NCBI RefSeq assembly: GCF_014396585.1
Contig: NZ_CP060717.1
Coordinates: 1,550,001 to 1,614,000 of the forward strand
From: Sphingomonas rhizophila
GTDB lineage: Bacteria; Pseudomonadota; Alphaproteobacteria; Sphingomonadales; Sphingomonadaceae
Direction of reading: 5' to 3'
DNA: 64,000 nt
The notes under the pieces were generated by a model that did not search any database, was not told the DNA's origin, and saw only the letters and a program-made list of their open reading frames with translations. Below, piece by piece: positions 9,034 to 21,482 of the stretch (within the stretch, counting starts at the first letter, position 1; each line of letters starts with the position of its first letter). The position numbers and the translations under genes are program-made.

Positions 9034-9573
9034 ATGTCCCGCTGGTACATCATTCACGCCTATTCCGGCTTCGAGAACAAGGTTCGCGAATCGATCCTGT
9101 CCGAAGCCAAGCGCCTGCAGCTTGAAAGCCTGGTCGAGGCGGTCGAGGTTCCGACCGAGAAGGTCACCGAAATTCGCCGCGGCAAGAAGGTCACCTCGGA
9201 CCGCAAGTTCTTCCCGGGATACGTTCTCGCGAAGCTCGGCATGAACGACGACGTCTATCACCTCGTCAAGAACACGCCCAAGGTGACCGGCTTCCTCGGC
9301 CCGAACGGCAAGCCGCAGGCGATCAGCGAAGCCGAGGCCGCGCGCATCCTCAACACCAAGGAGGAAGCCGCCGCGGCCGCGCCCAAGGCGAAGGTCAAGG
9401 TCGACTACGAGATCGGCGACGCCGTCAAGGTGCTCGACGGTCCGTTCGCCAGCTTCAACGGCGTCGTCGAGGAACTCGATTTCGACCGCAGCCGGGTCAA
9501 GGTCAGCGTGTCGATCTTTGGCCGCGCGACCCCGGTCGAGCTGGAGTTCGAGCAAGTCGAACGCGTCAAGTAG
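9034..9573 (+). CDS. nusG: Transcription termination/antitermination factor NusG
   Basis: The 179-residue protein has the NGN domain (M-S-R-W-Y-I-I-H-A-Y-S-G-F-E-N-K-V at the start, F-F-P-G-Y-V-L-A mid-domain) and the C-terminal KOW domain (G-D-A-V-K-V-L-D-G-P-F-A-S-F-N-G-V-V-E-E). NusG binds the RNA polymerase clamp, suppresses pausing and links polymerase to Rho or ribosomal protein S10. A GAGGT ribosome site precedes the ATG. It follows secE closely. Confidence 0.97.
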   Translation: MSRWYIIHAYSGFENKVRESILSEAKRLQLESLVEAVEVPTEKVTEIRRGKKVTSDRKFFPGYVLAKLGMNDDVYHLVKNTPKVTGFLGPNGKPQAISEAEAARILNTKEEAAAAAPKAKVKVDYEIGDAVKVLDGPFASFNGVVEELDFDRSRVKVSVSIFGRATPVELEFEQVERVK

Positions 9574-9635
9574 GATGTGCGGGATCGTTCGGGGCCTGAC
9601 GCACGTTAGACGCCGGACAATGCTTTCGATCCCGA

Positions 9636-11663
9636 GTGAATACCCTGCCCCCGTCCGCTAAGGATCTGCCGGAGCTGGACGCCGAGGAGTATCGCGTCCT
9701 GTTCGATGCGATGGACGAAGGCTACTGCGTCATCGAATTCTTCGATGGTCCGCATGGCCCCGACAGCGACTATATCCACATTGCCGCGAACGATGCTTAT
9801 GCGGAGAACGCCGGCATCCCCGACGTCGTCGGCCAGAAGTTGCGCGAAATGGTGCCTGACGAGGCGGATGCCTGGGTCGCGCGCTACGGCGAAGTGCTCC
9901 GCACGGGCAAACCGATCCGCTTCATCCAGGAACTGGTCGCCACGGGGCGCTGGCTGGAATTGTCGGCCTTCCGCATCGAACCGCCGGAGCGCAAGCATGT
10001 CGCGGTCCTGTTCCGCGACATCACCGACCGGCGCATCGCCGAGCAGTCGCTGCGCGAACTCAATGAAACGCTGGAGCAGCGCGTCGAGAAAGCGCTGGCC
10101 GAGCGCGCGCTGCTGGCGGACATCGTCGAGGGGACGAACGCGTTCGTCCAGATTGCCGACAAGGACTTCAACTTCCTGGCCATCAACGGCGCGTCCGCCA
10201 GGGAGTTCGAGCGGATCTACGGCGTCCGTCCGGTGGTCGGCGACAATATGCTTGACCTGCTGAAGGGCCGGCCCGAGCACCGCGCCGCTGTCGAGGCCAT
10301 CTGGCGACGGGCGCTGGAGGGGGAGGAATTCGTCGAAATCCAGCAATTCGGCGACGAGACTCGCGATCGCCGATTCTACGAGATGCGGTTCAGTGCTCTC
10401 CGAAATCAGGCGGGCGAGCAGATCGGCGCCTATCAGTTCGTCTACGACGTGACCGATCGCCTCAACGAACAGGCGCGCCTCGCCGCAGCCGAGGAGGCGC
10501 TTCGGCAGGCGCAGAAGATGGAGGCGGTCGGCCAGCTGACCGGCGGACTGGCGCACGATTTCAACAACCTTCTGGCCGGGATTTCGGGCGCGTTCGACAT
10601 GATTTCCACCCGCCTGAAGCAAGGCCGGGCCGAGGATGTCGAGCGCTACCTCAGTGCCGGGTCCGGGGCTGCCCGGCGCGCCGCTGCCCTCACTCATCGG
10701 CTGCTGGCCTTCGCCCGGCGACAGACCCTGACCCCGCGACCGGTCGTGGTCAACGGGCTGCTGCCCGACCTCATGGAGCTCGTCCGTCGGACGGTGGGTC
10801 CCGCGATCGCGGTCGAAACGGTGGCCGCGAGCGGGCTTTGGCCGGCCATGGTCGACGCCAACCAGCTTGAAAATGCGCTGCTCAACCTGTGCATCAATGC
10901 CCGCGACGCGATGCCCGATGGCGGCAGGATCACGATCGAAACCGGGAACAAGTGGCTGGATGAGCGGGCCGGGGCCGAGCATGGCCTCGACCCCGGTCAA
11001 TATGTGACGATCTGCGTCAGCGACACGGGCGAAGGCATTCCCAAGGACGTCCTGCCGCGCGTGTTCGATCCCTTTTTCACGACCAAGCCGATCGGCGAAG
11101 GCACCGGCCTAGGCCTGTCCATGGTCTACGGCTTCGCGCGCCAGTCGAACGGCCACGTTCGCATCTATTCGGAGATTGGCCAGGGAACGATGGTGTGCAT
11201 CTACATGCCGCGCCACCTAGGCGATGCCGAAGCGGACGATGCCGGGTCCCATACGCTGTCGGCAACGCCGGCCGTGGCGGAAGGGGAAACCGTGTTGGTG
11301 GTCGACGACGAGCCGGTCATCCGGATGCTGGTCGTCGACGCGCTGGCCGAAATCGGGCTCACCTGCCTCGAGGCGGAAGACGGCCGCGAGGGACTTGCAA
11401 TCCTGCAGTCCGACCAGCGTATTGACCTGCTGATCACCGACGTCGGCCTGCCGGGTGGCTTGAACGGACGCCAGGTTGCCGATGCCGCGCGCAGCCTGCG
11501 CGACGGGCTGAAGGTACTTTTCATCACCGGCTATGCCGAGAACGCCGTCCTCAACCATGGCCATATCGAGCCGGGAATGGAGGTGCTGACCAAGCCATTC
11601 GCGGTTAGCGACCTGACTGCACGCGTCGACCGGCTGCTTCGGGAACGACGCGACCCGAGTTAG
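9636..11663 (+). CDS. Hybrid histidine kinase (PAS-PAS-HisKA-HATPase-REC)
   Basis: The 675-residue protein starts at GTG 9636. It has no membrane segment, so it is cytoplasmic. Domains in order: PAS at ~15-135 (ending V-L-F-R-D-I-T-D-R-R), PAS at ~158-275 (ending V-Y-D-V-T-D-R), a HisKA dimerisation helix with the phosphoacceptor His307 in G-G-L-A-H-D-F-N-N-L-L, an HATPase domain (N-A-R-D-A-M-P, D-T-G-E-G-I, G-T-G-L-G-L-S-M-V-Y-G), and a C-terminal receiver at ~552-670 (V-D-D-E-P, L-I-T-D-V-G-L-P, T-K-P-F). The layout is that of blue-light/stress-type hybrid kinases, but the first PAS lacks the LOV photoactive Cys motif. Its stop overlaps the convergent GNAT gene. Confidence 0.9.
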   Translation: MNTLPPSAKDLPELDAEEYRVLFDAMDEGYCVIEFFDGPHGPDSDYIHIAANDAYAENAGIPDVVGQKLREMVPDEADAWVARYGEVLRTGKPIRFIQELVATGRWLELSAFRIEPPERKHVAVLFRDITDRRIAEQSLRELNETLEQRVEKALAERALLADIVEGTNAFVQIADKDFNFLAINGASAREFERIYGVRPVVGDNMLDLLKGRPEHRAAVEAIWRRALEGEEFVEIQQFGDETRDRRFYEMRFSALRNQAGEQIGAYQFVYDVTDRLNEQARLAAAEEALRQAQKMEAVGQLTGGLAHDFNNLLAGISGAFDMISTRLKQGRAEDVERYLSAGSGAARRAAALTHRLLAFARRQTLTPRPVVVNGLLPDLMELVRRTVGPAIAVETVAASGLWPAMVDANQLENALLNLCINARDAMPDGGRITIETGNKWLDERAGAEHGLDPGQYVTICVSDTGEGIPKDVLPRVFDPFFTTKPIGEGTGLGLSMVYGFARQSNGHVRIYSEIGQGTMVCIYMPRHLGDAEADDAGSHTLSATPAVAEGETVLVVDDEPVIRMLVVDALAEIGLTCLEAEDGREGLAILQSDQRIDLLITDVGLPGGLNGRQVADAARSLRDGLKVLFITGYAENAVLNHGHIEPGMEVLTKPFAVSDLTARVDRLLRERRDPS

Positions 11664-13409: not shown

Positions 13410-13841
13410 ATGGCCAAGAAAATTACGGGCTACATCAAGCTCCAAGTGCCTGCCGGCGCCGCCAATCCGTCCCCGCCGATCGGCCCTGCGCTGGGTCAGC
13501 GCGGCGTCAACATCATGGAATTCTGCAAGGCGTTCAACGCCGCGACGAACGATCTGGAAAAGGCGATGCCGATTCCGACCGTGATCACCGTCTACGCGGA
13601 CCGCAGCTTCTCGTTCACCACGAAGACGCCGCCGGCGTCGTTCCTGCTGAAGAAGGCCGCCAAGCTGAAGTCGGGCTCCAAGGAGCCGGGCAAGGTTTCG
13701 GCCGGAACCATCAAGCGCTCGCAGCTTGCCGAGATCGCCGAGACCAAGATGAAGGATCTCAACGCGAACACGATCGAGGCGGCGACCAAGATCATCGAAG
13801 GCAGCGCCCGCGCGATGGGCCTCCAGGTTGTGGAGGGCTAA
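13410..13841 (+). CDS. rplK: 50S ribosomal protein L11
   Basis: The 143-residue product begins [20 protein letters not shown] and contains [19 protein letters not shown], the L11 hallmark. L11 binds the GTPase-associated centre of 23S rRNA and takes part in factor binding and the stringent response. rplA follows after four bases. The gene lies about 3.8 kb after nusG, a wider spacing than usual, because of the hybrid kinase and Nudix genes. Confidence 0.97.
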
Positions 13842-13845
13842 CGAC

Positions 13846-14544
13846 ATGGCAAAGCTGACCAAGAAGCAGAAGAACCTCGACGGCAAGGTCGACTCGACCA
13901 AGCTCTACCAGATCGACGAAGCCATCGGCCTGGTGAAGAGCCTGGCCTCGTCCAAGTTCGACGAGACCCTGGAAGTCGCCATCAACCTGGGCGTCGACCC
14001 GCGCCACGCCGACCAGATGGTCCGCGGCGTCGTCAACCTGCCCAAGGGCACCGGCAAGGACGTCCGCGTCGCCGTGTTCGCCCGCGGCGACAAGGCCGAG
14101 GAAGCGACCAAGGCGGGTGCCGAAGTCGTCGGCGCCGAAGACCTGATGGAAGCCATCCAGGGCGGCCGCAGCGATTTCGACCGCGTCATCGCCACGCCCG
14201 ACATGATGGGCATCGTCGGCCGCCTCGGTAAGGTGCTGGGTCCCAAGGGCCTGATGCCGAACCCGAAGCTGGGTACCGTCACTCCGAACGTCGCGCAGGC
14301 CGTGACCGACGCCAAGTCGGGCCAGGTCGAATTCCGCGTCGAGAAGGCCGGCATCATCCACGCCGGCATCGGCAAGTGCAGCTTCCCCGAGGCCGACCTG
14401 AAGGCGAACTTCGACGCGTTCGTCGACGCCATCGTCAAGGCCAAGCCGACCGGCGCCAAGGGCAAGTACGTCCGCAAGGTGGCGCTGAGCTCGTCGATGG
14501 GCCCGGGCGTCAAGATCGACACCACCGAGGTCGCCGGCGCCTAA
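13846..14544 (+). CDS. rplA: 50S ribosomal protein L1
   Basis: The 232-residue product begins [10 protein letters not shown] and carries the L1 signature [15 protein letters not shown]1 forms the mobile stalk near the E site and typically represses translation of its own rplKA messenger. An intrinsic terminator follows immediately, so rplK-rplA form a separate unit from rplJ-rplL. Confidence 0.97.
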
Positions 14545-14638: not shown

Positions 14639-14830
14639 ATGACCGACGATCCGAAGCGCGAACCGCACGACCCGTCAGAGGACGAACACCCTCTCGCCTC
14701 GCCCACCGAGCTGGCGGGCACGACCGAGGCCGCCATCGACGCCGAATTCGCCGCGCGCGGTCGGCAGCAAGCGCTGGAAATTGCCGAGAAGGGTGAGCCC
14801 AAGGCAAGCGAAGGCAATAACCCGGGCTAA
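14639..14830 (+). CDS. Small acidic protein of unknown function (63 aa)
   Basis: The ATG at 14639 follows AAGGAG at a good distance. The product is charged and probably disordered at first (M-T-D-D-P-K-R-E-P-H-D-P-S-E-D-E-H-P), then has a short helix (T-E-A-A-I-D-A-E-F-A-A-R-G-R-Q-Q-A-L-E). There are no membrane segments or known domain. It sits between the rplA terminator and ppk2; the spacing to ppk2 is 52 bases. Confidence 0.5.
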   Translation: MTDDPKREPHDPSEDEHPLASPTELAGTTEAAIDAEFAARGRQQALEIAEKGEPKASEGNNPG

Positions 14831-14882: not shown

Positions 14883-15704
14883 GTGGAAAAGCTCAAGAAG
14901 AAGAAATACGAGGCCCTGCTCGAGCCGTTGCTTCACGAGTTGAGCGACGCCGCGCGCTGGATCGCCGAGACCGGCCAGCGGCTGGTGGTCGTTTTCGAAG
15001 GGCGCGACACCGCCGGCAAGGGTGGTTCGATCCACATGTTCGCGAACACGCTGAACCCGCGCCAGTGCCGCGTCGTCGCGCTGTCGGCCCCGAGCGACCG
15101 CGAGCGCGGCCAATGGTATTTCCAGCGCTACGCCGAGCACTTGCCCGCTACGGGCGAGATCGTCCTGTTCGACCGTAGCTGGTACAACCGCGCCGGTGTC
15201 GAGCGAGTGATGGGGTTCTGCACCGAGCGCGAGGCCAAGGATTTCCTGAAGAACGTTCCCGCGTTCGAGAAGCTGCTCGTCGACGAGGGGATTCTGCTCT
15301 ACAAATATTGGCTGTGCTGCGACCAGGAGAAGCAGGAGGAGCGGTTCGAGGATCGGCTCAACAATCCGCTGCGCCGCTGGAAGCTGTCGCCGGTCGACCT
15401 CGCCGCTCGCGAGAAATATGACGACTACACCCGCGCCCGCGAAGAGATGCTGATGGCGACGCACACCAGCTATGCGCCGTGGACGCTGGTCGACTTCAAC
15501 AATCAGGCGATCGGCCGGCTGACGCTGCTGCGCGACCTGCTCGACAAGCTGCCCGACACCAAGCTGCCGATTCCGGATGTCGAATGGCCGCCGCTCAAGA
15601 CCAAGCCGGGCCATGAAAGGTTTCAGGCGCTGCAGCCGATCGAGCATTACGATTACGACCAGGACGTCGAGGAACGCGATCGCAACGAGGATGAGGCGGA
15701 TTAG
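14883..15704 (+). CDS. ppk2: Polyphosphate kinase 2 family protein
   Basis: The GTG at 14883 follows a GGGGGA element; the family begins near V-E-K-L-K-K-K-K-Y-E. The 273-residue kinase has Walker A at ~39-48 (E-G-R-D-T-A-G-K-G-G), Walker B at ~95-103 (L-F-D-R-S-W-Y-N-R) and a lid segment L-Y-K-Y-W-L. PPK2 enzymes transfer phosphate between polyphosphate and nucleoside mono- or diphosphates; the single-domain length and R-S-W-Y-N-R-A-G-V-E fit class I (NDP to NTP), though direction cannot be read from sequence. It is followed after 24 bases by a DUF4956 membrane protein. Confidence 0.93.
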   Translation: MEKLKKKKYEALLEPLLHELSDAARWIAETGQRLVVVFEGRDTAGKGGSIHMFANTLNPRQCRVVALSAPSDRERGQWYFQRYAEHLPATGEIVLFDRSWYNRAGVERVMGFCTEREAKDFLKNVPAFEKLLVDEGILLYKYWLCCDQEKQEERFEDRLNNPLRRWKLSPVDLAAREKYDDYTRAREEMLMATHTSYAPWTLVDFNNQAIGRLTLLRDLLDKLPDTKLPIPDVEWPPLKTKPGHERFQALQPIEHYDYDQDVEERDRNEDEAD

Positions 15705-15728
15705 GCCCGCACTGGGGGGACGGAGACG

Positions 15729-16421
15729 ATGGACGCGCTCAAACTGCTGACCAAGCTCATCACCTACTACGTCGTCATCGTCGGCCTCGCCTTGCTTGCC
15801 CTGCGCGTCTTCCCGTCGATCCATGATTACATGCCGGTTGGCGGGGTGAAGGCGATCCTGACCCAGTCCGAGAAGGGCGTTCTTGCCGGCAACCAGACCC
15901 AGCCGGTCGAGGTCAAGAATATCGGCGAAAGCCTGATCTGGCTGGCGGTCGCCATCGGAGGGGCGCTGCTGACCTCCATTCCGGTCAGCTGGGTCTACAT
16001 GGGCGTGCGCAGCGGCGACGAATATGACCAGTCGCTGATCTCCACCATCCTCATCCTGCCGCTGGTGGTCACCTCCATCGTCGTCGTCGTGCAGAACTCG
16101 CTAAGCCTCGCCTTCGCGCTGGGCGGCATCGCCGGTGCGGTGCGCTTCAAGAATTCGCTGAAAAGCAGCGGCGACGCGCTGTTCATCCTGCTGTCGGTCG
16201 GGATTGGGCTGGCTTCCGGGATCGGCGCGGTCGAGCTGGCGATGGTGATGTCGGTCGCCTTCAACCTGTGCTTCGTCTTGCTGTGGTGGAGCGAATATGG
16301 CGAGCGCGAGGGGATGAAGCGATACCTTAGCGATTTCCGGCCGGATCCCAACGCGCCCGCGTCGCCACCAGCCGGCACCGCCGTCCCGCCCGCGACACCA
16401 CCATCGCCGCCAGCTGTCTGA
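15729..16421 (+). CDS. DUF4956 integral membrane protein
   Basis: The ATG at 15729 has GGACGGAG upstream; 230 residues. There are four or five hydrophobic helices: ~10-27, ~68-90, ~102-124, ~148-165 and ~170-187. The conserved cytoplasmic segment A-L-G-G-I-A-G-A-V-R-F-K-N identifies DUF4956. The C-terminus is Pro/Ala-rich. In other bacteria DUF4956 genes sit beside VTC-type polyphosphate polymerases and CotH-like proteins; here the neighbours are PPK2 (upstream) and a CotH-like gene (convergent, one base between stops). A membrane role in phosphate or polyphosphate handling is inferred from that context. Confidence 0.85.
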   Translation: MDALKLLTKLITYYVVIVGLALLALRVFPSIHDYMPVGGVKAILTQSEKGVLAGNQTQPVEVKNIGESLIWLAVAIGGALLTSIPVSWVYMGVRSGDEYDQSLISTILILPLVVTSIVVVVQNSLSLAFALGGIAGAVRFKNSLKSSGDALFILLSVGIGLASGIGAVELAMVMSVAFNLCFVLLWWSEYGEREGMKRYLSDFRPDPNAPASPPAGTAVPPATPPSPPAV

Positions 16422-16422
16422 T

Positions 16423-17460
16423 CTACACCTTGAGGCAGCGGTTGATCACCCTGGCACGCACCGACTGGTCGGTGGCGATCAGGGCGAAGAATTCCTCCAG
16501 GTAGGCCGATGCCTTCGCCGCCCGGCGGCGGTCGAGCCCGGGCACCGCGTTCAGTTCGGCCAGAAATGCGCCGCGCCTGGCACGGAAATCGCCGGCAGCT
16601 GCGAGGACGGCATCGTTATGGATGCAATAGCCACGATAGCGGCGTTCGCGGACGCTCGCCTCGGTGAAGCCTTCGGGCGGAACGGCGTAAGGCGCGTCGA
16701 CCAGCCCGCTGTAGTCGAAGTCATAGGGCATCGGGATCAGCCCCTGCCCTGCCACGGCGGGCTGGACCAAGCGACCGTTGTGGCAGCAGGGTTCGCCCGC
16801 CGGACCGGCCTGCAGCGCCCAGTCGAGGTTGCCGATCATATATTCGAACAGCACCATGCGCGCCGCCGCGGCCGGGTCGATCTGCCGGGTCGGGACACGC
16901 TGCCCTACTCGGGCCTTGCGGAGGCCGTTTCGCCGGGCCGCGGAACCGTCGTCCTCGATGAAGAAGCCGACCCGGGACGTGATCGGCTTTCCGGCGTCGT
17001 CGACATAATCGATGGTGGCCAGCCGCGCCCGGAAGCTAACCGGGGTGAGAAGGTTGTAGAGCCGGTAGGCGGCGTATTCGAGGAGCACGTGCTGCTGGAA
17101 ATCCTGGGCGTTGCGGCAGTGGGTGACCAGCTTCAGCCGGCCCTGACGAGCAAACACCGATGTTGGCGCGGGATTGGTGAAGGAAACGCGCAGCGGCGGA
17201 AACTGGCAGGTTTCCTTGCGCATGCGCGTGATGCCGCGAAGGCCCAGCGTCACCGGCAGGCTTTCCCCGGTCGATTTCACGGTCACCGTGCCGGGTACGC
17301 TGTCGCTGCGGTCGCGGTCCCCGCGCATCATTTTCTGGATGGCTCCGCGGATTTCGAGCGCCAGCGGCTGGTCGGCGGCGAACAGCGGTTCGGGTGGGGC
17401 GGCATGGACCGTTGACGAGGCGGACAACAGCGCCGCCGCAAACAGCATCTTTCCCTTCAT
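16423..17460 (-). CDS. Exported CotH-like (atypical kinase-like) protein
   Basis: The ATG at 17460 has a purine-rich site upstream; residues 1-20 form a signal peptide cut after V-H-A. The 345-residue protein resembles the CotH-like group: an early R-G-I-T-R-M-R-K block, C-Q-F-P-P-L-R-V-S-F, L-K-L-V-T-H-C, a Y-R-L-Y-N-L-L-T-P-V-S-F-R-A-R segment, R-V-G-F-F-I-E-D-D, Y-M-I-G-N-L-D-W, and the metal-site-like P-Y-D-F-D-Y-S-G-L-V-D-A-P-Y-A. CotH proteins are secreted kinases that phosphorylate surface proteins in spores; Gram-negative relatives are uncharacterised. Substrate, and whether it is catalytic, are unknown. Confidence 0.66.
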   Translation of the reverse strand: MKGKMLFAAALLSASSTVHAAPPEPLFAADQPLALEIRGAIQKMMRGDRDRSDSVPGTVTVKSTGESLPVTLGLRGITRMRKETCQFPPLRVSFTNPAPTSVFARQGRLKLVTHCRNAQDFQQHVLLEYAAYRLYNLLTPVSFRARLATIDYVDDAGKPITSRVGFFIEDDGSAARRNGLRKARVGQRVPTRQIDPAAAARMVLFEYMIGNLDWALQAGPAGEPCCHNGRLVQPAVAGQGLIPMPYDFDYSGLVDAPYAVPPEGFTEASVRERRYRGYCIHNDAVLAAAGDFRARRGAFLAELNAVPGLDRRRAAKASAYLEEFFALIATDQSVRARVINRCLKV

Positions 17461-17480
17461 TGCCTGCCCCTTTCGTCGCC

Positions 17481-18533
17481 CTATGGGCGTGAGACGCTGT
17501 GCGCCGTCGCCTTTCCTCCGATGATCTCGAGGTAGCCGGGCTTGCCGCCGTAGGCGCGTGAGGCGCCGCTATCGACACGGCCGAGCCGGCCGGCTTCCTG
17601 CACCGTCACGCCGGACAGGATCGGCGTATGGCCGATCACGATCCGCCTCGCCTTGCGCAGGCTCAGCAGGCGGTCGAGCTGCACCGACACGCTCGGCAGC
17701 GGCGGCGCGCCCCTGACGGGCGTTTCCGGCGGCAGGCCGGCCAGCCCGCGGTACCACAGCGGCCCCGTGGCGCTGTTGATGATGGCCTCTCGGCCAGTGT
17801 CGCGAGCGGCCAGTGCCTGGGCGACCTGACGGTTGATGTCGTTATCGCTGACCGGTGCGTAGGCGGGGCTGATCCCGCCATGGACGAAGATGGTATCGCC
17901 GATCTGCACGACCGCCTTGTGCTCCATCAGCCATTTGCCCAATTCCCCGGTCGGAGCCCACGCGGTCTGGTGCTCGATCATCCCGAGCGGCGTTGCGGCG
18001 TACCACCGCTCGCGAATGGCGGTGTCCGACAGGGTGACGTCGGTCTTCCGGTAGTCGGCGATTATGGCCTTGCGCTGCGCATCCCACAGCCGGTCGCGCC
18101 GCCGTTCCGAATTGGCGTCGGCGAACGCCGCATATTCCCCCGGCGTGACGTAACGCAGGTCGCCGGTCATCATCATCGCCTCGTGGTTTCCAACCAGGAC
18201 GATGACCTCGCCGCCGGCTTTCCTGGCCTCTCGCTCCAATTGCTGGAGATGGCGAATGATGCGAAGCGAGTCGGGGCCCCGGTCGACGATGTCGCCGGTC
18301 TGGACCAACGTCGCCTTCCCGCCGGCCCAATGCCCCCTGGAGTCGATCAGCCGCGCGCCTCGGGCGATCGCCTGCCACGCGTCGAAGTCGCCATGAAGGT
18401 CGCCGACCGCGACGATGCGCTCCGGGACGACCGGCGACGCCGTTGCCGATGCCGCCGGCAGCAAGAGAAGCAGGATGGCGAGCCAGCGGCCAACGCACCG
18501 GGTCAACGGACCGACCATGAAAAGCCTTTCCAT
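17481..18533 (-). CDS. Exported calcineurin-type metallophosphoesterase
   Basis: The start is taken as ATG 18533 (350 aa), with ATG 18518 as an alternative. A signal peptide with helix W-L-A-I-L-L-L-L-L-P-A-A-S-A precedes the catalytic domain. The metal motifs are G-D-L-H-G-D (D-x-H), G-D-I-V-D-R-G, G-N-H-E and, near the end, G-H-T. This pattern matches periplasmic Shewanella-like/Ser-Thr phosphatases. It lies 20 bases downstream... that is, transcription passes from this gene into the CotH-like gene on the same strand, making a possible exported kinase-like/phosphatase pair. The 5' end carries a perfect inverted repeat over the first start codon. Confidence 0.84.
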   Translation of the reverse strand: MERLFMVGPLTRCVGRWLAILLLLLPAASATASPVVPERIVAVGDLHGDFDAWQAIARGARLIDSRGHWAGGKATLVQTGDIVDRGPDSLRIIRHLQQLEREARKAGGEVIVLVGNHEAMMMTGDLRYVTPGEYAAFADANSERRRDRLWDAQRKAIIADYRKTDVTLSDTAIRERWYAATPLGMIEHQTAWAPTGELGKWLMEHKAVVQIGDTIFVHGGISPAYAPVSDNDINRQVAQALAARDTGREAIINSATGPLWYRGLAGLPPETPVRGAPPLPSVSVQLDRLLSLRKARRIVIGHTPILSGVTVQEAGRLGRVDSGASRAYGGKPGYLEIIGGKATAHSVSRP

Positions 18534-18550: not shown

Positions 18551-18640
18551 GGCGCGCGGCACGCCGGCTTGTCAAGCGGCGCCCACCCTTTCGCGTCGCG
18601 CTGGCAGACCTTACCTCAGGTCCTGAAAGCGGGAGGACTC

Positions 18641-20272
18641 ATGGAAAAGATCGCTGACGACCTGAAGGTGATGCCTCGAACGCCGCTTCACGCCGAGCAT
18701 GTCGAGGCGTTGCGCAAGGCCGGCCATGAGCGACTGTTCGAAGCCGGCGAGACGGTGTCGCGGATCGGGGATCCGATGGACCAGTTCATCTATGTCGAGG
18801 AAGGCGAGATCGAGCTGGTCGATCCGTTCACCAACGAGCGTTACGTCGAGAGCACGATCGGGCCGACCCAGTTCGTCGGCGAAATCTCTTTCCTCAACGG
18901 CGGCGCCTACAGCCTTGCCCTCCGTGCCGCGAAGCCGACGCGGGTGATCGAAACGTCGCGCAAGGCGGTGCTCGACCTGATGTCGAAGACCCCGGAGATG
19001 AGCGACATCATCCTGTCAGTGTTCGCCGCGCGCCGTCGCGCGCAGTTCGAAGACGGGGACAGTTCGCTGGTGCTGATCGGCGCCGAACGCGATCCCGCCG
19101 TCCAGGCCGTTGCCGCCTTCGCCACCCGCAACCTCATCCCGCACGCGAGCCACGAGCTCGGCAGCCCGGAGGCCGCCGAAGCCGCGCTCAGCTGCGGCGT
19201 TGACGGATCAGGCCCGAAAGTCATTTTCGGCAAGGACCGGGTGATTGACGACCCTACCCCGCGCAAGGTCGCGCAACTGCTCGGCCTCGACCTTGCCATC
19301 GAGTGCGGAGAAATGGTCGATCTGCTGATCGTCGGGGGCGGGCCGGCCGGGGTGGCGGCGGCCGTTTACGCCGGCGCCGAAGGCATCGAAGCACTCGTGA
19401 TCGAGGACGTGTCGATCGGCGGCCAGGCCGGGACGTCGAGCCGGATCGAAAATTACATGGGTTTCCCGACCGGAATCTCCGGCGCCGACCTGGTCTGGCG
19501 CGGCCAGGTGCAGGCGATGAAGTTCGGCACCCGCTTCGCCATGCCGCGCCGGGTTACCGGCCTTGCGACCGCGCTGGACGGACAGTCGCTGTGCGCCGAA
19601 CGCGATCATGGCGAGCAGATGATCTGTGCCCGGGCGGTGCTGGTCGCCACCGGGGTCCAGTACCGTCGCCTGCCCCTCCCCGGCTGCAGGAATTCGAGGG
19701 CCGCGGGGTCTATTACGCCGCGACCGAGATGGAAGGACGCTTCTGCGCCGGAACCGAAGCGGTCATCGTCGGCGGAGGCAATTCGGCGGGCCAGGCGGCG
19801 ATGTTCCTGTCGCGTCACGCGCGCCATGTGCACGTGCTGGTGCGCGGCCGTTCGCTGGCGGCGTCGATGTCCGACTATTTGCGGAGCCGGCTGGACGCCG
19901 ACGAGCGCATCACGGTCCACTACGGCTGCCAGATCGCGGAGCTTCACGGCGACGAGGATCTCAACGCGATCACCATCGACACGTGCGGCGAGGCGAGGCG
20001 GATCGACACCAACGCGCTGTTTATCATGGCCGGGGCCGCGCCCAACACCGGCTGGTTGTCCGAACTGGTCGAGCTGGACGACAAGGGCTTCGTGAAGACC
20101 GGCGAGGCCGTCGGCGCCTCCTCCCCTACGCCACGTCCCACGACCGCATCTTCGCGGTCGGCGACGTTCGGGCCGGATCGGTCAAACGCGTCGCCTCGTC
20201 GGTCGGCGAGGGCTCCGTGGTCGTGTCGGCGATCTGGTCGGTTCTCGACACGCCGCCCCGGACGAGGGCTAA
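18641..20272 (+). CDS. cNMP-binding domain/thioredoxin-reductase-like protein (three apparent frameshifts)
   Basis: The ATG at 18641 follows GGGAGG. Residues ~15-130 form a cyclic-nucleotide-binding domain ([25 protein letters not shown]). A thioredoxin-reductase-like flavoprotein follows, with FAD motif [24 protein letters not shown] motif [11 protein letters not shown] and final [13 protein letters not shown]. The usual CxxC site is replaced (Y-Y-A-A-T-E-M-E), so disulfide reduction by the standard route is unlikely. One missing base in C runs near 19678, 20123 and 20256 breaks the frame; restoring them gives one protein ending at TAA 20272. Assembly error is the likely cause. Confidence 0.8.
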
Positions 20273-20549
20273 ATATCTTGACACAGGGGCGATTCTGGTT
20301 AGTGGGCCGCCTGTCGTTCGCGGGGTTCTCCCCACGGACACTCGTCCGAGACAGTCGCCGAGGGTTTCCCTCTTAATCTGCGGCCTAGACGGGGAACTGA
20401 ATCATTCGGGGCCTTCATCGGCCCTGTCGTGCGGAGCTACGGCTCTGCCACCGATCCATCCCCACGGACAAATATGCTTCGTCGCCAACCGGCGGCGAGG
20501 TCGTTTGAACCTCGGCCAAAGTACCACTTTGGCCGAAAAGGAGTATGGC

Positions 20550-21056
20550 ATGGATCGTTCGCAAAAAGCCGATCTGGTTGCCGAGCTGAAGAACGTCTTC
20601 ACCGAGACCAGCGTGGTGGTGATCACCCGCAATCTCGGCCTGTCGGTCGCGCAATCGACCGACCTGCGCCTGAAGATGCGCGATGCCGGTGCCCAGTTCA
20701 AAGTTGCGAAGAACCGGCTTGCCAAGATCGCGCTCGAGGGCACGAAGTACGGACCGATCGGCGAAATGCTGACTGGCCCGACCGCTTTGGCCACCTCGGT
20801 CGACCCCGTGGCCGCCGCCAAGGTGGCCGTGGAGTTCGCCAAGACCAACGATCGTCTGGAGATCGTCGGTGGCGCGATGGGCGACACGCTGCTCGACATC
20901 GATGGGATCAAGGCTCTGGCCCAGCTCCCGTCGCTCGACGAGCTTCGTGGCACCCTCATTGGCCTCATCCAGGCGCCGGCGACCAAGATCGCCCGGATTG
21001 CCAAGGAGCCGGGTGGCCAGCTGGCGCGCGTTCTCGCCGCCAAGGCCGCAGCTTAA
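20550..21056 (+). CDS. rplJ: 50S ribosomal protein L10
   Basis: The ATG at 20550 follows AAGGAG; 168 residues beginning [11 protein letters not shown]10 anchors the L7/L12 stalk; the segment [11 protein letters not shown] and the C-terminal helix binding L7/L12 are clear. The frame is open far upstream because it coincides with the disrupted flavoprotein frame, but the ribosome site and family length fix the start. The 277 bases upstream form a leader, as expected for L10 autoregulation, though I could not assign the fold. Confidence 0.96.
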
Positions 21057-21107
21057 GTTTTTCATCAACGCACGACATTCGGGCCCTTGCCCCACTAGGA
21101 GAATAAA

Positions 21108-21482
21108 ATGGCTGACCTGAACAAGATCGTCGACGACCTGTCGGCTCTGACCGTCCTCGAAGCTGCCGAGCTCGCCAAGCTGCTCGAAGAAAAGTGGGGC
21201 GTTTCGGCCGCCGCTGCCGTCGCCGTTGCCGGCCCGGCCGCCGGTGCCGCTGCTCCGGCCGCGGAAGAGAAGACCGAGTTCGACGTGATCCTCACCGGCG
21301 ACGGTGGCAAGAAGATCAACGTCATCAAGGAAGTCCGCGCCATCACCGGCCTGGGTCTTGGCGAAGCCAAGGCGCTGGTCGAAGCGGCTCCGAAGGCCCT
21401 CAAGGAAGGCGTCAACAAGGACGAAGCCGAAAAGATCAAGAAGCAGATCGAGGAAGCCGGCGGCACCGTCGAGCTCAAGTAA
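21108..21482 (+). CDS. rplL: 50S ribosomal protein L7/L12
   Basis: The 124-residue product has the N-terminal dimerisation helices ([14 protein letters not shown]), an Ala-rich hinge and the factor-binding C-domain ([30 protein letters not shown]). It recruits translation GTPases. AGGAG precedes the ATG and a strong terminator follows. Confidence 0.98.

Follow-up and report, generated by a model that had tools for sequence, protein, structure and literature searches.

The window analyzed here is a stretch of 64,000 nucleotides from Sphingomonas rhizophila (NCBI RefSeq assembly GCF_014396585.1, contig NZ_CP060717.1, positions 1,550,001 to 1,614,000), and the subject of this report is a block of four genes that it carries, encoding a polyphosphate kinase 2 (PPK2), a DUF4956 membrane protein, a CotH-like protein and a phosphatase (Table 1). 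The block is built from two short gene pairs that converge on each other. A gap of 24 bases separates ppk2 from the DUF4956 gene, and 20 bases separate the CotH-like and phosphatase genes, both of which are on the minus strand. Where the two pairs meet, the stop codon of DUF4956 (16419-16421) and the complementary stop codon of the CotH-like gene (16423-16425) are one base apart. An earlier note on this DNA had described this gene order with its strands, coordinates and stop spacing, all of which are borne out by the positions of the open reading frames. Of 23 loci at which the spacing was measured, 14 have at least four bases shared between the ends of these two convergent genes, which makes overlapping 3' transcripts probable.

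Table 1. Genes of the block, the genes on either side of it, and the propeller genes of related loci.
Feature	Position	Strand	Basis
PPK2 (class I type polyphosphate kinase 2), GTG start, 273 amino acids	14883..15704	+	PF03976, TIGR03707, PDB matches
DUF4956 membrane protein, ATG start, 230 amino acids, conserved RF(R/K)..LK loop	15729..16421	+	PF16316, profile-profile comparison, helical model
CotH-fold kinase-like protein, 345 amino acids, apparent signal peptide	16423..17460	-	predicted fold, motifs
Shewanella-like PPP phosphatase, 350 amino acids, apparent signal peptide	17481..18533	-	PF00149, family profile, motifs
Context upstream of block: rplK, rplA	13410..14544	+	translations, tblastn orthologues
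Context downstream of block: rplJ, rplL	20550..21482	+	translations, tblastn
Propeller gene	L047:3807-4625; L064:8809-9702; L066:9099-9911; L067:8368-9180; L177 about 9426-10232		

Two samples of 61 genomes each were searched for relatives of the block. The first comprises the genome of the window itself, 36 others of the genus and 24 of the order; the second is made up of genomes of the genus and contains the same 37 genus genomes as the first. In the first sample, strong matches to DUF4956 and to the CotH-like protein were found in an identical set of 16 genomes, all belonging to the genus. Weak matches in G021 and a second DUF4956 match in G034 (E 6e-5 to 6e-4) were treated as noise; the tallies with them are 17 of 61. 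In the second sample, DUF4956 is present in 30 of the 61 genomes, the CotH-like gene is present in the same 30 and neither is present in the other 31, with 31 copies of each in total. The two genes lie no more than 0.9 kb apart in all 31 copies. They are direct neighbors in 27, and the remaining four (G018, G035, G470 and one of the G001 copies) have a single propeller gene between them. The block is present in the cultured relatives S. cremea, S. edaphi and S. alba. An RpoB tree was made with a quick method for 49 of the 61, those with an absent, partial or split RpoB match (12 genomes) being left out. Parsimony explains the presence pattern on this tree with 11 changes, and its well-supported branches require at least six joint gains or losses. 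The pair therefore comes and goes together, and its linkage is conserved beyond chance.

The other two genes of the block follow this pair less strictly. The phosphatase gene is present in 26 of the 31 copies, and PPK2 lies next to the pair in 22 of the 30 for which this could be determined, G461 being excluded from the count since its contig ends within DUF4956. The earlier note had left the linkage of the block's genes to a survey of gene neighborhoods, and the survey upholds it. Within the genus sample, the PPK2-linked blocks occur in at least four upstream surroundings. When the 22 PPK2-linked loci are taken together with L051, a locus from a metagenome-assembled genome (MAG), their upstream flanks are of six kinds, three of them shared between loci and three seen at one locus each (one of the latter, G456, has a short flank), and the downstream flanks of the same 23 loci make up five sets, the largest of which holds 16. 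A wider sample of 398 genomes from the phylum had the CotH-like family only in the genome of the window and in G310, which belongs to another genus of the same family.

Two genomes of the genus sample have unusual copies. The CotH-like gene of G459 (L173, 9482-10436) is in three pieces, and PPK2 and phosphatase genes were not detected adjacent to it; this is either a decaying copy or the result of assembly errors. G001 has two divergent DUF4956/CotH-like pairs (L067 and L068), each near an rplJ-rplL, and may be a mixed assembly, since it gave two rpoB matches as well as two copies of the pair.

By its sequence, the gene at 14883-15704 is certainly a PPK2. It matches PF03976 with an E-value of 1.9e-90, scores 331.2 bits against the curated NCBIfam family TIGR03707, for which the cut-off is 301.8, and matches PDB entries 3czq and 6dzg at E 3e-76. 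It thus passes the family score of class I PPK2 and differs from that family in its linkage to DUF4956 and the minus-strand pair. In a tree of 39 rows, which took 20 of the 45 available PPK2s from outside the block, the block PPK2s form a single group (support 95/98) adjacent to other PPK2s of the genus and are closely related to the PPK2 kept elsewhere by genomes that have no such block. From this position in the tree, PPK2 probably joined the block once. The genus also has PPK1; that of the window's own genome was recovered outside the window as two fragments in different frames (G000 C1:1107992-1108524).

The DUF4956 protein of the window scores 27.6 bits against PF16316, which is under the Pfam cut-off of 30.6. 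The label holds despite this score, because, of 16 genomes that gave a PF16316 match, 13 exceed the cut-off and because profile-profile comparison with five DUF4956 proteins from loci that also carry VTC and CotH genes gave a 98.4% match over 122 columns, including the RFR..K loop. The loop, VRF(R/K)x(S/T)LKS(S/T), is present in all 25 aligned sequences. This alignment takes in 25 of 26 sequences; L045 was omitted and L051 was kept, although its mid-sequence looks frame-broken. R91, F92, R93 and K97 are invariant in a five-row alignment, and a loop of the RFRxx(I/L)K type is shared with the DUF4956 proteins of the VTC/CotH loci. The predicted structure is helical (pLDDT 77.5), with long helices at residues 3-27, 65-93, 101-120, 123-143, 147-164 and 168-190. 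As a working topology, an N-terminus on the inside would make the R/K-rich loop at 139-145 face the cytoplasm. The DUF4956 profile had no match among PDB sequences.

The phosphatase matches PF00149 at E 1.8e-11, and the top PDB matches of its family profile are the Shewanella phosphatase I structures 1v73, 2z72 and 2zbm (E 4e-43 to 2e-42). The motifs of Shewanella-like PPP phosphatases have been defined as GDXHG, GDXXDRG, GNH(E/D) and (I/L/V)D(S/T)G (PMC535813, accessible part). GDLHG, GD..DRG, GNHE and HGG are found in all 13 aligned phosphatases, and (I/L/V)D(S/T)G, with the final residue allowed to be G or A, is found in 12 of them; the window protein has VDSG. The alignment covers 13 of 21 sequences, and the open reading frame of L050, which had no usable start, was not aligned. 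The protein thus resembles the Shewanella-like phosphatases (Shelphs; 1v73, 2z72) in its PPP motifs, in its sequence match and in the bacterial VDSG motif, but differs from them in that its gene is linked to a CotH-fold gene and DUF4956.

The identity of the CotH-like protein comes from its predicted structure. The AlphaFold2 model (pLDDT 86.6) has the CotH kinase of Bacillus cereus as its top Foldseek matches (5jd9, E 2.8e-10; 5jda, E 1.5e-10). Alignment to 5jd9 with VIA-align gave a Z-score of 19.3 and a root-mean-square deviation of 3.3 Å over 270 aligned residues at 12% identity, and the next family, CtkA, reached a Z-score of 13.0. The predicted CotH fold is solid. R75, D213, N228, D247 and D249 are invariant in all 24 sequences of the family alignment, from which the open reading frames of L038 and L045 were left out as they lacked a usable start, and G76 is nearly so. 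Matched by eye rather than by residue-level structure alignment, these residues follow the order RG, NFD, HN and DYD seen in 5jd9. Structure prediction had been put forward in the earlier note as a check on this protein, and both the fold and the catalytic motifs turn out to be kept. The D228Q form of B. subtilis CotH is catalytically inactive (PMC7821199, accessible part), and judging from the sequences, D228 most likely corresponds to D213 here.

The family also has features of its own. Six cysteines (C85, C115, C225, C226, C279 and C342) are invariant, which suits an exported protein, and the stretch from the catalytic Asp to the DxD motif contains an insertion whose CCHN motif is invariant. 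In addition to these cysteines, the insertion and the low identity, the protein differs from the spore-coat kinase (5jd9/5jda) in having an apparent signal peptide and in giving no PF08757 match, while the predicted fold and the order of catalytic motifs are the same. Classical CotH (PF08757) is found in none of the 61 genomes of the genus and order sample. The profile of the CotH-like family gave just four matches among PDB sequences (E 1.2 to 1.4), which were TIR-domain proteins. By comparison, a single canonical CotH domain retrieved no PDB chain with phmmer, and a four-row CotH profile recovered 5jd9. Both minus-strand proteins are apparently exported, their signal peptides having been judged by eye from the N-termini. 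The exported pair of a kinase-like protein and a phosphatase that the earlier note had described is real as a pair, and its export is a by-eye reading of the N-termini.

The phylum sample has DUF4956 in eight genomes, including that of the window. Outside the window's family there are eight copies in six genomes, and all eight are clustered with a VTC-domain gene, which directly adjoins DUF4956 in four clusters and is separated from it by a CotH gene in the other four. A PF08757 CotH gene encoding 864-1023 amino acids is found in five of the eight clusters. The association of DUF4956 with VTC and CotH-like genes, to which the earlier note had pointed, is borne out here by VTC in all eight clusters and by CotH in five. 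A PHO4 phosphate transporter gene is present in two of the eight, one of which also has a Phytase-like gene. The gene content of L094:5018-9012, a VTC-DUF4956 locus of another bacterium with both a PHO4 transporter and a Phytase-like gene, suggests that DUF4956 may have a wider role connected with phosphate. The association of polyphosphate polymerase, DUF4956 and CotH has been published for Gram-positive Pel clusters, where they are accessory genes (PMC7112168, accessible part). In another bacterium, proteins with a polyphosphate polymerase domain are listed at the same locus as a protein of the CotH kinase family, DUF4956 not being mentioned in the accessible part of that source (PMC11677781). 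No literature pairing PPK2 with CotH was found in a search that left most subscription papers outside.

Like the VTC-DUF4956-CotH set, the block clusters DUF4956 with a CotH-fold gene and with one that encodes a soluble polyphosphate enzyme. However, a VTC polymerase gene is found in none of the 61 genomes of the first sample, and PPK2 is in its place in 22 of the 30 determinable copies. At 345 amino acids, compared with 864-1023, the CotH-fold protein is compact, and Pfam misses it; a Shewanella-like phosphatase has been added and the genes are arranged in two convergent pairs. We judge the block to be a new variant of this known gene set. It is plausible, from these gene neighborhoods, that PPK2 functionally replaces VTC, as the earlier note had proposed. 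The missing VTC gene and the frequent presence of PPK2 beside the pair speak for this part of the proposal; the eight copies without PPK2, the occurrence of PPK1 in 55 of the 61 relatives and the closeness of the block PPK2 to the PPK2 that block-less genomes of the genus have elsewhere speak against it. Because of those eight copies, the replacement of VTC by PPK2 is something that we infer.

Our main reading is that the four genes may form one functional unit, in which an exported cycle of a CotH-fold kinase and a phosphatase is coupled via DUF4956 to a polyphosphate enzyme, and we consider the chances of this to be about even. In such a unit, the CotH-fold protein would phosphorylate a periplasmic or cell-surface target, from which the Shewanella-like PPP phosphatase would take the phosphate off again. 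DUF4956 would be the inner-membrane partner of the two exported proteins, and its positive RF(R/K)xxLK loop, predicted to be cytoplasmic, would meet a phosphate polymer or nucleotide coming from the soluble polyphosphate enzyme. That enzyme would be a VTC-type polymerase at the DUF4956 loci outside the family and PPK2 here. The DUF4956 step could be supplied by PPK2, or by polyphosphate made by PPK1. The phosphorylation cycle and the export of its proteins are inferred, as are the topology and the supply of the DUF4956 step by PPK2 or PPK1, and the link from polyphosphate to the envelope, which the earlier note had put forward, is supported only by the gene neighborhoods. As far as the sequences indicate, the most likely role would be to phosphorylate an envelope target reversibly, with DUF4956 tying this cycle to phosphate metabolism in the cytoplasm.

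Several observations weigh against a single four-gene unit of this kind. The topology of DUF4956 is soft, because the charges of its loops are mixed, and DUF4956 has no convincing match to a solved structure, fold searches having given none at E<=0.001 and none with Z>=8. The window's CotH-like protein has no match in Pfam, PF08757 included, and just two of the 24 family members reach PF08757 with E<=1 (best E 0.0017). Sequence profiles give no link between this family and the CotH proteins of VTC loci. The phosphatase is missing from five of the 31 copies (G018, G019, G459, G478 and one of the two in G001). PPK1, being so widespread among the relatives, implies that the block PPK2 is not their sole polyphosphate enzyme. 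Finally, PPK2 is absent beside eight of the determinable copies of the pair (G001 twice, G018, G019, G035, G470, G459 and G478). G310 likewise has the pair and the phosphatase with no PPK2 beside them, and the same trio without PPK2 is held by two distant MAG loci, L047 (Marinicaulis) and L049 (Lysobacterales).

These copies without PPK2 are what one would expect if PPK2 were a neighbor without a shared role and the unit consisted of DUF4956 and the CotH-fold protein, joined in most cases by the phosphatase. The grouping of the block PPK2s beside the ordinary PPK2s of the same genus points the same way. However, PPK2 stays attached in the majority of copies, through at least four upstream surroundings, and DUF4956 outside the family likewise clusters with a polyphosphate enzyme gene. 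A bystander PPK2 is a possible explanation, but on the unlikely side.

The CotH-fold protein might also not be a protein kinase at all, but a pseudokinase or a modifier of a glycan, a lipid or a small molecule, or it might transfer another group. Its very low identity to CotH would fit with this, as would the invariant CCHN insertion and the presence of lipid kinases among the same structural matches, and CotH genes are found in Pel polysaccharide clusters as well (PMC7112168, accessible part). Against this, the Asp and DxD motifs are invariant, and the gene neighboring CotH-like in 26 of the 31 copies is that of a PPP phosphatase. We regard a different activity as a tentative alternative.

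A third explanation is phosphate scavenging, in which the phosphatase and a propeller protein would free phosphate outside the cell, DUF4956 would aid its uptake and PPK2 would handle its storage. The propeller is an apparently exported, beta-propeller-type protein of about 270 amino acids, encoded between DUF4956 and CotH-like at five PPK2-less loci, four in the genus sample and L047. Both members that were scanned exceed the SdiA-regulated cut-off, and one also matches Phytase-like, below the cut-off. This gene, together with the PHO4 transporters and the Phytase-like gene of the VTC-DUF4956 loci described above, gives the explanation some appeal. However, it leaves the CotH-fold protein unexplained, although that protein is always paired with DUF4956 here, and among solved structures the phosphatase is closest to protein phosphatases. 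Scavenging is therefore unlikely.

A stronger form of the coupled phosphorylation cycle would have DUF4956 serve as a conduit that passes polyphosphate or its phosphoryl groups across the inner membrane to the exported CotH-fold kinase. In that case the donor, in a compartment that lacks ATP, would be polyphosphate, and on the cytoplasmic side VTC and PPK2 could be exchanged for one another. We think it quite improbable that the system goes as far as this. No literature joining three or more of the themes of CotH, phosphate donor, polyphosphate and secreted kinase was found, subscription papers being mostly uncovered by the search.

That the genes are chance neighbors held together by the ribosomal-protein locus, as might be supposed from the nine of the 22 PPK2-linked copies that lie between rplA and rplJ, can be rejected as extremely improbable, because the other 13 lie elsewhere with the block intact and because DUF4956 and CotH-like appear and vanish together. 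An anti-phage role was also sought, and PADLOC gave no match for any of the four block proteins.

Two further features adjoin the block in the window. A small open reading frame of 63 codons with an ATG start is located at 14639-14830, between rplA and ppk2. On the other side, 3' of the block, a cNMP-binding/thioredoxin-reductase-like gene (18569-20376) seems to be split across frames, either through sequencing indels or because the gene is broken.

Exported CotH-fold kinases require a phosphate donor outside the cytoplasm, and the block bears on that question. With its own phosphatase, a complete match in the presence and absence of its core genes across the 61 genomes sampled and cultured species in the genus, the small four-gene block would make it open to simple genetic tests. 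It is also a way into the function of DUF4956, a family that is little mentioned in the literature searched.

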